64,000 nucleotides of DNA, taken from Nitrososphaerota archaeon (GTDB taxonomy: Archaea > Thermoproteota > Nitrososphaeria > Nitrososphaerales > Nitrosopumilaceae). The notes under the pieces were generated by a model. It was not told the DNA's origin. It searched no databases and saw nothing but the letters and a program-made list of their open reading frames with translations. Positions 48,657-55,821 of this stretch are shown piece after piece; position 1 is the first letter of the stretch; every line of letters starts with the position of its first letter. Made by a program: the position numbers and the translations under genes. The DNA is taken from contig JABDDN010000003.1 in NCBI GenBank assembly GCA_013287585.1, positions 1 through 64,000 on the forward strand, read 5' to 3'.

Positions 48657-50204
48657 CTAATCTCTAGAATTGTCAGTCTTAATCTTTTTTCTATCTTGAT
48701 TTTGTGAATTAGTCTCTTTAGGAGATTTTTTATTATTAACATGATGTTGGTTATCATTAACTGCATTGACATTCTGCGTAGCATTTACATTATTTACTGT
48801 CCCTGATTGTGTTTGGTTATTTCTATTTTCATGAAGTCTTTTTTCATTGTCAATATGAGGTGGATTATTAACGATGTTGGAATTTTGTGTTGGATTTACA
48901 TTATTTACTGTCCCTGATTGTGTTTGGTTATTTCTATTTTCATGAAGTCTTTTTTCATTGTCAATATGAGGTGGATTATTAACGATGTTGGAATTTTGTG
49001 TTGGATTTACATTATTTACTGTCCCTGATTGTGTTTGGTTATTTCTATTTTCATGAAGTCTTTTTTCATTGTCAATATGAGGTGGATTATTAACGATGTT
49101 GGAATTTTGTGTTGGATTTACATTATTTACTGTCCCTGATTGTGTTTGGTTATTCTGTTTTGTTATAGTTGAGTTGTTAACTGGATTTGTTATTTCTGTA
49201 GTATTGAAATTATTCATATTGGCTGGCTGTGTTGCATTTGGTGTTTCAGTTGTAGGTATTTGGGGACTTGTCTCTTGGTTTTGTAGGGCCTCAATTAATT
49301 TTATCAATTTTAGTGCTTCGTCAATTTTACCCTCTGAAACAAGCTGTTTTAGTTGAATAATCATATCAGGTATATTTCCTGTCTGACTTTTGTTAGTGAC
49401 TTGAGGTACAGGTGTATTGAAAGGAGTAGTAGATGATTGTGTTACATTTTGTATTGGGTTAATTTCTTTTACCTGACTTTCGTTAGTGACTTGAGGTACA
49501 GGTGTATTGAAAGGAGTAGTAGATGATTGTGTTACATTTTGTATTGGGTTAATTTCTTTTACCTGACTTAGTCTTTGAATTTGTTTTTCTGTAAAGTCTT
49601 TAGCTCTATCTGATGTTTTCATTTTTGCAGCATCTGCAAGAAGTTGATGAGCGTCAAGGAGGAACTGATTCGCAGTTTCAAGATCATTATTTACTTGATT
49701 GGCATTCCCAGCATCAAGATTTTGTCTTGCGTCTTGCATTGTTTCATTAAATTTGGTGAAATTTATTTCCACGTTGTTCTTTATAGCAATTGTTTTTAGT
49801 CTATCTCCAAGCATTTGCTTTCTATTGATTTCACTCTTTAATTGTAACGTATCAATTTGAGTGGGTTGTTTACTTGTGGCAACAGGTGTAAGAGATGATA
49901 TTTTATCATTTATCTCCTTGAAAATTTTCATTGCAGAAAGAAAGTGTTCCTTGGAGGAAGCTTGATCTGCTTGTGAAACTGATTGTGATAACGCATCAGT
50001 TTCTTCTGAGCCTTGTTTATAGAGTTGGTTAATTTCATCAGATACTGTTGGAAGTTGGGATAATTGGATATTGATATTATCCCTTGCTTGTGTTGCAATT
50101 CTTAGCAAGACATCAAGGTTTGGATCAGCATAAGATGGAACTGGCAAATTTGTCAATACTAGACTTCCAACCAAAACAAACAAAACAAATGCTAATGATT
50201 TCAT
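48657..50204 (-). CDS. secreted coiled-coil protein with tandem Asn-rich repeats
   Basis: 515 residues. Signal peptide (LAFVLFVLVGSLVLTNLPVP), then a helical domain (about 25-220; AKMKTSDRAKDFTEKQIQRL), two 30-residue repeats (QVKEINPIQNVTQSSTTPF), a short helix, and three-plus 37-residue Asn-rich repeats (TQSGTVNNVNPTQNSNIVNN), ending in a basic tail. It overlaps the upstream membrane regulator by 4 nt, so the two are likely coexpressed and perhaps interact across the membrane, which is inference. Confidence 0.75.
   Translation of the reverse strand: MKSLAFVLFVLVGSLVLTNLPVPSYADPNLDVLLRIATQARDNINIQLSQLPTVSDEINQLYKQGSEETDALSQSVSQADQASSKEHFLSAMKIFKEINDKISSLTPVATSKQPTQIDTLQLKSEINRKQMLGDRLKTIAIKNNVEINFTKFNETMQDARQNLDAGNANQVNNDLETANQFLLDAHQLLADAAKMKTSDRAKDFTEKQIQRLSQVKEINPIQNVTQSSTTPFNTPVPQVTNESQVKEINPIQNVTQSSTTPFNTPVPQVTNKSQTGNIPDMIIQLKQLVSEGKIDEALKLIKLIEALQNQETSPQIPTTETPNATQPANMNNFNTTEITNPVNNSTITKQNNQTQSGTVNNVNPTQNSNIVNNPPHIDNEKRLHENRNNQTQSGTVNNVNPTQNSNIVNNPPHIDNEKRLHENRNNQTQSGTVNNVNPTQNSNIVNNPPHIDNEKRLHENRNNQTQSGTVNNVNATQNVNAVNDNQHHVNNKKSPKETNSQNQDRKKIKTDNSRD
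48790..49152 (-). repeat. 111-bp tandem repeat (37 residues)
   Basis: Three nearly identical 111-bp units plus a diverged fourth in the Asn-rich part of the secreted coiled-coil protein; the TTATTAACGATGTTGG element recurs every 111 bp. Near-perfect identity implies recent expansion or gene conversion. Confidence 0.9.
49398..49577 (-). repeat. 90-bp direct repeat (30 residues)
   Basis: Two tandem 90-bp copies (GACTTGAGGTACAGG at 49398 and 49488) encode the same 30-residue segment (QVKEINPIQNVTQSST core), differing by about one codon (NES versus NKS). Confidence 0.88.
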
Positions 50205-52932: not shown

Positions 52933-53171
52933 CCTAAATTCCCATGAATTCATACCATATAAAATCTGATCAGATATTCAATTTCACAATTTAAATAAAC
53001 TTAGTAAGAATCTAGCCTAGTTACAAACAATATTACATTCAAGTTTTACCATTTTTGCAAGAAATCATTTACTTGAGATTATATCAGATATTTGGAAAAT
53101 GAGGTCAAGGTATCTAATGAGTGAATCTATTAACTTTTTATATATTGCAAATTACATTATTGATAAGCAAT

Positions 53172-53741
53172 ATGTTTGAGAGGTTCAAAAAAAATCGTAA
53201 TAAATTAAATGAATTTTCCTCAGAAAAAGAACCCGAAAGTAGTGTTATGGTTGAAGACACACATTATGAACCTCAAAAGGCAGAATCTCCTAAAATTGAG
53301 CACAAAGTTGTTGAACAAGTAAAAATACCGGAACCTATTGAACAATTCAACATGAGTCAACCAACTGAAGACATTGGAATAAGATCGCTTATGGATAAAC
53401 GAACAAAACTTGAAGAAGCAATAGATTACGTTGGTCTATTAATCAAGAATCTCAAAGATAAGCGTACAAAACTTGAGAAGAGTATTGAAGATGAATCTGT
53501 TGATATTAAAAATCTTAAAGAGAAGTTACTCAAGGTAGGTCAGTATATTGATGAGGAAAGACATGGAATCAAAGTACTACAACAAAAAAGAACAGATGTA
53601 GAAAAAGAAGCAGATGATGTGGGCACAATGATTAACAATCTACGAGAAAAACTCATGTCCATTGATAGCATAGTAAATGAAGAAGGTAATAAGATAGAGA
53701 AATTTAAGGAATCACGTCCAAAATCTGAATCTTCATTATAA
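53172..53741 (+). CDS. coiled-coil protein
   Basis: About 189 residues from ATG 53172 (leader and TATA TTTTTATATATTG place transcription near 53165, so the longer in-frame start at 53121 is unlikely). N-terminal basic region (FERFKKNRNKLNEFSS), then an imperfect helical repeat of about 25 residues (MDKRTKLEEAIDYVGLLIKN, KDKRTKLEKSIEDESVDIKN, LREKLMSIDSIVNEEGNKIE). Cytosolic, no membrane segment. Structural or scaffolding role inferred. Confidence 0.7.
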   Translation: MFERFKKNRNKLNEFSSEKEPESSVMVEDTHYEPQKAESPKIEHKVVEQVKIPEPIEQFNMSQPTEDIGIRSLMDKRTKLEEAIDYVGLLIKNLKDKRTKLEKSIEDESVDIKNLKEKLLKVGQYIDEERHGIKVLQQKRTDVEKEADDVGTMINNLREKLMSIDSIVNEEGNKIEKFKESRPKSESSL

Positions 53742-53742
53742 C

Positions 53743-54117
53743 CTAGAAAGTAAAACTTTCTTTTAGCATTGAACTTAGGTTTTCCTTAATATCAAGTTCA
53801 GAAGAAACCGAATCCAAATCTCCTATCAAAACCTCAGCGGCAAGACATTGATTTTTAGAGAATTGATAATAACATTCTAGTCTTTCTTGGTATGTCTTGG
53901 CATTGTGAAATGTTTCCCAAAAATTTTCAGATGCGTGTTGTACAAACAATAGAAACTTGCGTATAGCTTCTTCAATTTCTGGTGATTGACTATCTTTTGT
54001 CAATCCAATTAAGATCTGCTCAAGTTTGCTCTCCAAGTTTGATTCGTATATCATATGATAAAGATCAATTTCTTTTGTCATGCAATTCGTATGCAAGTGT
54101 ATCATAAAAGTATTCAT
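53743..54117 (-). CDS. hypothetical helical protein
   Basis: 124 residues; the likely start is ATG 54081 (TKEIDLYHMIYES). Predominantly helical: ESNLESKLEQILIGLTKD, EEAIRKFLLFVQHASENFWE, LAAEVLIGDLDSVSSELDIK. No recognised family, signal peptide or metal motif. Convergent with the coiled-coil gene (1-nt gap). Its promoter side abuts the ~215-nt structured RNA region. Confidence 0.6.
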   Translation of the reverse strand: MNTFMIHLHTNCMTKEIDLYHMIYESNLESKLEQILIGLTKDSQSPEIEEAIRKFLLFVQHASENFWETFHNAKTYQERLECYYQFSKNQCLAAEVLIGDLDSVSSELDIKENLSSMLKESFTF

Positions 54118-54235
54118 TGAATAATTTTCAAGAAAAATTGTATAATGATATAGTAACTACATGTTTTAAAAAGATCTTGAAATTTTAAACTCAAATTTGC
54201 ATAAAACTTTAAATAATTTAATCACGTATTATATG

Positions 54236-54450
54236 TCCCTATCAAAGGAATATCCTTCCGAGATAGGCATCATGCAGAAAACAGGCAACGCGGTCAAGGA
54301 AAAACCCTTCCGCACGAAAGGACTAAGTCGGTCTATGGGATGAAAGACTCCCAAGAAACGATGACAAAGGTCATCGACAGGCTTATGGATCCCTTAAAAG
54401 ATCCTACCTTGCGCTTGGCGTGTCTAATACACGCTCATGCATGATTAAAT
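54236..54450 (+). ncRNA. candidate ~215-nt structured RNA of unknown class
   Basis: A TATA-like TTTAAATAATTTAA (about 54208-54220) precedes by about 25 nt a segment that folds into: a 5' hairpin CCTATC/GATAGG with inner AAGGA/TCCTT; a long-range 8-bp helix ATCATGCA (54269-54276) with TGCATGAT (54438-54445); internal hairpins GCGG-AAGG/CCTT-CCGC, GATGAC/GTCATC and GGATC/GATCC; and a 3' hairpin GCGTGT/ACACGC followed by a T-rich end. No open reading frame and higher GC than its flanks. The hallmark GGAAAGTCC of RNase P RNA and the SRP helix-8 motif were not found. Confidence 0.6.
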
Positions 54451-54552
54451 TTTTCCCACAGTCAATTTTGTTTTAATTAAAATCGACAAATTTATGGAAT
54501 TTATTAGAATGTATTATACAATAATAGGACTGCATTGTGAGTATCAAAATAA

Positions 54553-55821
54553 ATGTCTAGTGCAAAGAACAGTAAGTGGATATGGTATCTTTTTCCTTCA
54601 AACGTTGTCACCCAAGGTCTATGTACTGTCATCCCATTGTATGTAATTTTTCTTGGAGGAAATATTGGTGAAATTGCAATTATTGTTGCTATGCAAAATG
54701 GCGCCTCTGCTTTTGGCGCCATATTTTGGGGAAAGATAATAGATAGATTTCATGTACGGCGCACAGTTCTTTTGGTCACTTTTTTTGTTGTGATGCTTTG
54801 CAGTCTTATGATGTATTTTACAAACAGCATTAATGTCCTTTATGTAATTTCTCCTCTACTTGGTTTCTTTATAGTAGGCAAAAATCCTGTTGCACAATTA
54901 CTTGTAATGGAATCTATTCATAAAAATCAATGGAGATGGTTATTTGCAAGAACTTCAATAATTGGAACTTTTGGTATGCTTGGTGCAATGATAATTGGTG
55001 CTATAGGAAGTGTGTATTTTGATTTAAAACCATATTTTTTGATATGTGCAGCAGCGTGTGTAGCTACAATGGGTCTTAGTATGACAATCAAAGAATCTCA
55101 GTTCCATTTGGAAAGGAGTAGTATAGCACATTCAATCCATGGTTTACGATATGTATTTTCACATTTCCATGTTGACTTGCCAAAGATTCCAGAGCTGCAT
55201 GACTATAAGCACATAATTACAATTTTTAAGGGAAGAGTAACTGACGAGATAGGCGTTTTCTATATTACTAACTTTTTATTTTATCTTGGTAGTAATATCT
55301 ATTTTACTGCTTTTACACCATTTCTAAAAAATTATGGGTTTTCAAACTCTGATGTTTTTTTGATTTACATGATTCAAACTGCAGCAATGATCTCAGTTTT
55401 CTTTTTGGCCCCACGATTTATATCAAAAATGGGAGAGGAACGCTCCATATCGTTATCATATGTGCCAAGAATAGCTGCAGTAGTAATAGCTGGATTGTTT
55501 ATTCCAATAACAATAGGCCAAGGGTCTTTTGCAGTAGCAATTATTTCAGCTTCTTTAATGGTCATTGCTTTTTCAATTTTTAGTACTGCAACTTCAATTA
55601 TTTTTTTCAAAAGCATTCCCCAGGGTTTTGAAGGAAAATATCTTGGAGTGAACAGCTCAATTACAACGGTTGGCCTTTTTATTGGTGCCTTGTGTACTGG
55701 GCAGCTTGCAAATTCGTTTGGATATACAATAACATATGCTGTTGCCTCTGGAATCCTAGTTACCTCTTTTGCTTTGTTTAGAGTATATCTTCGCTACAGG
55801 CTATCAGATAAAACTGACTAG
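54553..55821 (+). CDS. major facilitator superfamily transporter
   Basis: 422 residues with about twelve hydrophobic segments. MFS features include FGAIFWGKIIDRFHVRRTVL (between TM2 and TM3), a long central cytosolic loop (about 190-235) and PQGFEGKYLGVNSSITTVGL in the second half. Substrate unknown. Start ATG 54553; its stop overlaps that of the convergent ESCRT-III gene 2 by 4 nt. Confidence 0.88.
   Translation: MSSAKNSKWIWYLFPSNVVTQGLCTVIPLYVIFLGGNIGEIAIIVAMQNGASAFGAIFWGKIIDRFHVRRTVLLVTFFVVMLCSLMMYFTNSINVLYVISPLLGFFIVGKNPVAQLLVMESIHKNQWRWLFARTSIIGTFGMLGAMIIGAIGSVYFDLKPYFLICAAACVATMGLSMTIKESQFHLERSSIAHSIHGLRYVFSHFHVDLPKIPELHDYKHIITIFKGRVTDEIGVFYITNFLFYLGSNIYFTAFTPFLKNYGFSNSDVFLIYMIQTAAMISVFFLAPRFISKMGEERSISLSYVPRIAAVVIAGLFIPITIGQGSFAVAIISASLMVIAFSIFSTATSIIFFKSIPQGFEGKYLGVNSSITTVGLFIGALCTGQLANSFGYTITYAVASGILVTSFALFRVYLRYRLSDKTD

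Follow-up and report, generated by a model that had tools for sequence, protein, structure and literature searches.

Comparative analysis argues strongly that a genuine, previously uncatalogued stand-alone gene for a structured RNA lies on the forward strand of the window, i.e. the whole 64,000-nucleotide stretch of DNA from a Nitrososphaerota archaeon that was analysed here. Its presumed transcript would represent a new RNA family, which matches no Rfam family and is found in ammonia oxidizers related to Nitrosotalea. Ammonia-oxidizing archaea are major players in nitrification, and since culture transcriptomes can be screened for the RNA straight away, RNA biology becomes directly testable in this group. 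In the open-access literature no paper was found with both "Nitrosotalea" and "non-coding RNA", a description elsewhere being possible. The main text of a comparative survey of 104 candidates contains neither Nitrosopumilus, Cenarchaeum nor Thaumarchaeota (PMC2864571).

The locus combines the features expected of a stand-alone non-coding RNA gene: promoter-like element, conserved covarying fold, U-run and absence of a conserved ORF. Coordinates are listed in Table 1. The RNA is about 215 nt long in the window and roughly 165-215 nt in relatives; the best, approximate estimate of its 3' end in the window is 54454-54458. Its GC content of 0.46 is elevated, as originally predicted, compared with 0.18-0.35 in neighbouring 100-nt windows lying outside or mostly outside the RNA. 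The plus strand folds with predicted energy of -71.6 kcal/mol (z = -4.8, 200 dinucleotide shuffles), the minus strand more weakly (z = -2.5), and relatives give z values similar to that of the window RNA. The 5' hairpin, the 8-bp long-range closing helix and the strong internal hairpins described in the original prediction are all present. The same prediction included a 3' hairpin with T-rich end. Both hairpin and T-run exist, but the hairpin is not a terminator: the last hairpin (P7) sits inside the closing helix, and the T-run follows this helix rather than P7.

Table 1. Position and main properties of the RNA gene, its predicted helices and flanking elements in the window
Feature	Position	Strand	Remarks
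Structured non-coding RNA, whole gene	54236-54454	+	covariance models align 54236-54461 end to end, 108-138 bits
Promoter: TATA-like box TTTAAATA (54208-54215), then conserved TTTAATCACGTA element	54208-54228	+	28 aligned loci
P0, 5' hairpin CCTATC/GATAGG, short AGG/CCU tip	54238-54267	+	one stem pair A-U to G-C in 14 sequences
P1, closing helix, 5' strand ATCATGCA	54269-54276	+	nearly invariant in all homologs; partner 54438-54445
P1, closing helix, 3' strand TGCATGAT	54438-54445	+	nearly invariant; partner 54269-54276
P2, 5' and 3' strands	54282-54286, 54413-54417	+	two-sided changes in 7 of 7 consensus pairs
P3, hairpin GCGG/CCGC plus AAGG/CCTT	54290-54313	+	two-sided changes in 8 of 9 pairs
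P4, arm AAG (54325-54327) with CTT (54382-54384)	54325-54384	+	encloses P4a (54336-54353) and P5
P5, hairpin CGATGAC-AAAG-GTCATCG	54359-54376	+	all sequences checked have an AAAG or AATG loop
P6, hairpin GGATC/GATCC	54387-54404	+	two-sided changes in 5 of 5 pairs
P7, hairpin GCGTGT/ACACGC	54418-54434	+	core GTGTG/CACAC nearly invariant, unlike the outer pairs
U-run TTTTT, likely archaeal transcription terminator	54450-54454	+	kept in aligned homologs; termination predicted
Divergent neighbour, 124-aa protein, not part of RNA gene	53743-54117	-	no Pfam/NCBIfam match
Downstream MFS transporter, not part of RNA gene	54553-55821	+	Pfam MFS_1

The TATA-like box and, downstream of it, the predicted 5' end (~54236) are about 26 nt apart, which is the right distance and agrees with the original prediction. 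When 28 homologous loci are aligned, the TATA box and CGTA are kept and the remaining spacer drifts. Likewise, the spacer between the RNA and the divergent 124-aa gene keeps its length (in most loci 117-119 nt separate the gene start from the 5' end of the RNA) with few letters preserved outside the promoter. The U-run at the other end is conserved and likely to act as an archaeal transcription terminator.

To what extent is the proposed structure shared by homologs? In a MAFFT alignment of 18 homologs, built from sequence alone, 92.8% of cells are paired under this structure. Two-sided changes occur in 22 pairs compared with 10.3 in shuffled alignments (none of 500 reaches 22), and the covariation score is 0.206 versus 0.132; the count of further pair types is unremarkable, 45 of 500 shuffles reaching it. 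If pairing partners are slid by 1-3 columns, paired cells fall to 32-50%, a control over which the structure has an advantage as it was drawn from folds of the same 18 sequences. When 42 sequences are aligned to the model, two-sided changes are seen in 41 of 60 pairs versus 22.8 in shuffles; this alignment is fitted to the model and thus leans towards the structure, it includes a stray reverse-strand row, and the shuffles take no account of relatedness. Pair counts across genera come from a model-fitted alignment. Compensatory changes, proposed as a check of the original prediction, are thus found in relatives, and the alignments support a common multi-branched fold of the homologs.

Individual helices differ in the way they are conserved. 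P2, P3, P4, P6 and outer pairs of P7 vary in sequence with pairing kept, while the sequence itself is fixed in P1, in the P5 loop and in the P7 core. For P4, 97.6% of cells are paired and two-sided changes are found in 3 of 3 pairs; in the genus of the window this pairing is read from the alignment, the single-sequence minimum free energy fold pairing the same bases differently. The P5 motif GAC-AAWG-GTC is present in 41 of 41 sequences. The P0 internal loop is nearly invariant, with AA on the 5' side (37 of 41 sequences) and mostly CCCAA on the 3' side. The C-rich 3' strand of P0 reads AUCCUCCCAA in most relatives and is strongly conserved though mostly unpaired.

This pattern bears on the possibility that the locus hides a short protein-coding gene. 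No ORF of at least 60 aa is present within 54236-54450, in line with the original prediction. Chance ORFs of 20-47 codons do occur in some homologs, but those of at least 20 codons inside the RNA differ in place and sequence among relatives, and two-sided base-pair changes dominate. A coding function is therefore extremely improbable.

Does the RNA belong to a known class? Search of Rfam 15, suggested as a check of the original prediction, retrieved no family at gathering thresholds and, with E relaxed to 10, nothing above chance level. Archaeal RNase P RNA (RF00373) resembles the window RNA in being a multi-helix RNA of 200-300 nt encoded by a single-copy gene, and archaeal SRP RNA (RF01857) is a structured RNA in a ribonucleoprotein, as we propose below for the window RNA. 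However, neither model matches the window above its gathering score, and the same genome has its own copies on other contigs: RNase P RNA on C7 (G000:C7:42607-42883, 189 bits) and SRP RNA on C1 (G000:C1:154174-154490, 108 bits). The window RNA is thus not a diverged copy filling either role. No tRNA or tmRNA was detected in the window by ARAGORN. The first reading, too, recognized no RNase P, SRP or tRNA signatures.

The further suggestion that the RNA might be a guide RNA finds no support, as there is neither a conserved unpaired segment of guide length nor a clade-wide C/D or H/ACA signature. Features of C/D and H/ACA RNAs were sought by eye and with Rfam, and no Rfam snoRNA family matches above threshold. 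A C-box-like UGAUGA is located at P5 in many sequences of genus g8; the window and its genus have CGATGA at this place. K-turns need G-A pairs, and a k-turn in P0 is unsupported, the internal loop having mostly A opposite A.

Several multi-way junctions with invariant elements give the RNA a complexity that is seen in some ribozymes. Against a ribozyme or other catalytic RNA, ribozyme families are among the Rfam families without match, the gene is a fixed single-copy one with its own promoter, and nothing suggests a substrate. We regard this reading as improbable. Among described archaeal RNAs, Tan1 (Thalassoarchaea ncRNA 1) is a 229-nt, highly expressed RNA of complex predicted structure from one marine lineage (PMC5069720). 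By description it is similar to the window RNA in size, in complexity of predicted structure and in being unassigned; unlike the window RNA, it is hosted by marine group II Euryarchaeota (PMC5069720).

Distribution of the RNA was examined by DNA search and by three covariance models. DNA search of 200 genomes of the family gave long matches in four genera (g1, g7, g8 and g21). Model R1, built on 18 g8 sequences and run on 250 family genomes, found one copy per genome in 42 of them, all within these four genera. With R2, a broader model of 41 sequences applied to 41 genomes of the family, a diverged homolog was also recovered from a fifth genus (genome G009 of g9; 50.5 bits, E 5.5e-14). It retains P0, P1, P5, P7 and the U-run in this order, including GATGACAATGG of P5, and is preceded by a TTAAATAA element. 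R1 on 400 genomes of the class gave a single further match, which is weak (15.6 bits; 19.1 bits with R3) and was rejected as it lies within a collagen-like coding repeat. The last model, R3, added nothing credible in 120 class genomes.

The carriers seem to be Nitrosotalea-related ammonia oxidizers of soil and freshwater, a small group in which g8 is probably Nitrosotalea itself; one homologous locus is G008:C1:39285-39479. Elsewhere in the class no credible match was obtained, at a sensitivity at which the many-genome searches scored few candidates per genome and R1 missed G009. At this sensitivity, the homologs are confined to five genera of one family, which is consistent with the lineage-specific RNA envisaged originally; together with conserved structure and lack of an Rfam match it bears out the description as an unassigned structured RNA gene. 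Several candidates were discarded. Matches outside the five genera (13.9-19.1 bits) and a second match in g21 are located, on inspection, in or across long ORFs, collagen-like repeats among them, and were attributed to chance; one of the rejected weak matches (L159/L162) overlaps an ORF only partly. A reverse-strand match at L022 (15 bits, alignment A3) was left out of later alignments. Weak DNA matches of the two RNA ends in other genera revealed no RNA on reading.

Of 37 g8 genomes, 33 have the RNA; among the 19 good genomes of this genus, 18 do. As a single-copy gene with a complex conserved fold and such a distribution in the main genus, it is probably important to the cell. Three of the g8 genomes without the RNA, G090 (96% complete), G176 and G189, also have no match to the 124-aa neighbour; in the fourth, G159, the contig ends inside the gene for this neighbour. 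Hence at least one absence, that from G159, is due to an assembly edge, and that from G090 may be either true loss of the region or a gap.

In most loci the gene order is the same: gene for a 206-aa coiled-coil-like protein, divergent 124-aa gene, RNA, MFS gene and CdvB/Snf7-like gene. The MFS gene starts about 100 nt downstream of the RNA on the same strand in most relatives, as would be the case if the RNA were a cis-acting leader or riboswitch of this transporter gene. A riboswitch or mRNA leader would have a fixed downstream coding gene, but here the RNA is kept without it: three loci (L022, L025, L053) have no MFS match between RNA and CdvB gene, and a fourth (L035) has only an MFS remnant (48.6% identity over 37 codons), the RNA being intact in all of them. 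In G009, the RNA stands at an unrelated locus with no adjacent MFS gene and none of the usual neighbours in the stretch examined. The RNA is thus independent of the MFS gene. Moreover, the U-run precedes the MFS gene, and in most MFS-bearing genomes it is followed by a conserved AT-rich promoter-like stretch. Hence a leader function appears very unlikely.

A functional link between the RNA and the 124-aa neighbour is also unsupported, since g17 orthologs of this protein (41-46% identity) have no window-type RNA alongside. In two g8 genomes (G102, contigs C71/C93; G117, contigs C38/C46) a second match to the 124-aa protein is found on another contig, which may be either a genuine paralog or a duplicate created by assembly. 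The 206-aa protein (53121-53741, plus strand), conserved beside the RNA locus, has weak SMC/Rad50-like matches only.

What might the RNA do? We tend to favour, with modest confidence, a trans-acting ribonucleoprotein RNA. According to this model, a stable RNA of about 215 nt would be made from its own promoter and end at the U-run. Its conserved fold comprises a 5' hairpin that stands apart (P0) and a body that P1 closes; P1 opens into a three-way junction with P7 and P2. P2 in turn holds a multi-way junction with P3, P4 (bearing P4a and P5) and P6. The RNA would work in trans as RNA part of a ribonucleoprotein, in which the covarying P2, P3, P4, P6 and outer P7 would provide the scaffold, and the letter-fixed P0 internal loop, P1, the P5 C-AAWG-G loop and the P7 core would be docking sites for protein or another RNA. 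It is the constant sequence of P1, of the P5 loop and of the P7 core that suggests binding sites.

The fixed elements could equally be seeds for pairing with a target RNA. The main rival of the ribonucleoprotein is accordingly a trans-acting regulatory sRNA that would base-pair with mRNAs, for example through the strongly conserved, mostly unpaired C-rich strand of the P0 internal loop. There is a precedent in Methanosarcina mazei sRNA154, an intergenic archaeal sRNA that covers a ribosome binding site with one of its loops (PMC5867862). By description, sRNA154 and sRNA162 of this species resemble the window RNA as intergenic archaeal small RNAs and differ from it in having known mRNA targets (PMC5867862, PMC3510493). 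In the window, however, Shine-Dalgarno-like motifs precede 7 of 57 long ORFs, hardly more than at a control position (5 of 57), which argues against a general anti-ribosome-binding-site role of the P0 strand and weakens anti-Shine-Dalgarno action. No complementary site was found in the window besides the gene itself and one near-match. Furthermore, the multi-branched covarying body exceeds the needs of a seed RNA. We thus consider a base-pairing sRNA unlikely, though deserving serious attention.

Uniqueness of the promoter was assessed separately. In the window's genome (G000), the 21-nt element (54208-54228) has one match with at most 2 mismatches. In G058 it has two exact sites, each before a structured RNA: one precedes the homolog of the window RNA, the other a second small structured RNA. 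Other, mismatched sites that were examined fall within apparent coding sequence. Across the tested genomes, the full element is close to unique. One may speculate, and we hold this as a doubtful extension only, that the RNA forms the core of a new ribonucleoprotein or ribozyme peculiar to Nitrosotalea-like ammonia oxidizers, with a role for which other archaea need no RNA, and that in some g8 members it would be expressed jointly with another new RNA from a promoter element that, in the genome searched, precedes these two genes only.

The second small RNA is about 70 nt long and closed by GACGGAAACG/CGTTTCCGTC; it was observed at L105 / L123 (G058:C1:403695-403799, minus strand) and L124-L131. 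Five loci checked gave no Rfam match. Nine g8 genomes carry it behind a promoter element resembling the one of the window RNA. Sequences related to it, but with other upstream sequences, occur in further g8 genomes and in g3, g4 and g11 (L132-L134, L138, L144, L145). A tetraloop protein site common to both RNAs was considered and dropped, as the loop of the second RNA differs in other genera.

Elsewhere in the window, the minus strand at 48657-50204 encodes an Asn/Gln-rich protein, predicted to be secreted, whose almost perfect tandem repeats are located at 48783-49161 (111 bp x 3.4) and 49383-49569 (90 bp x 2.1).
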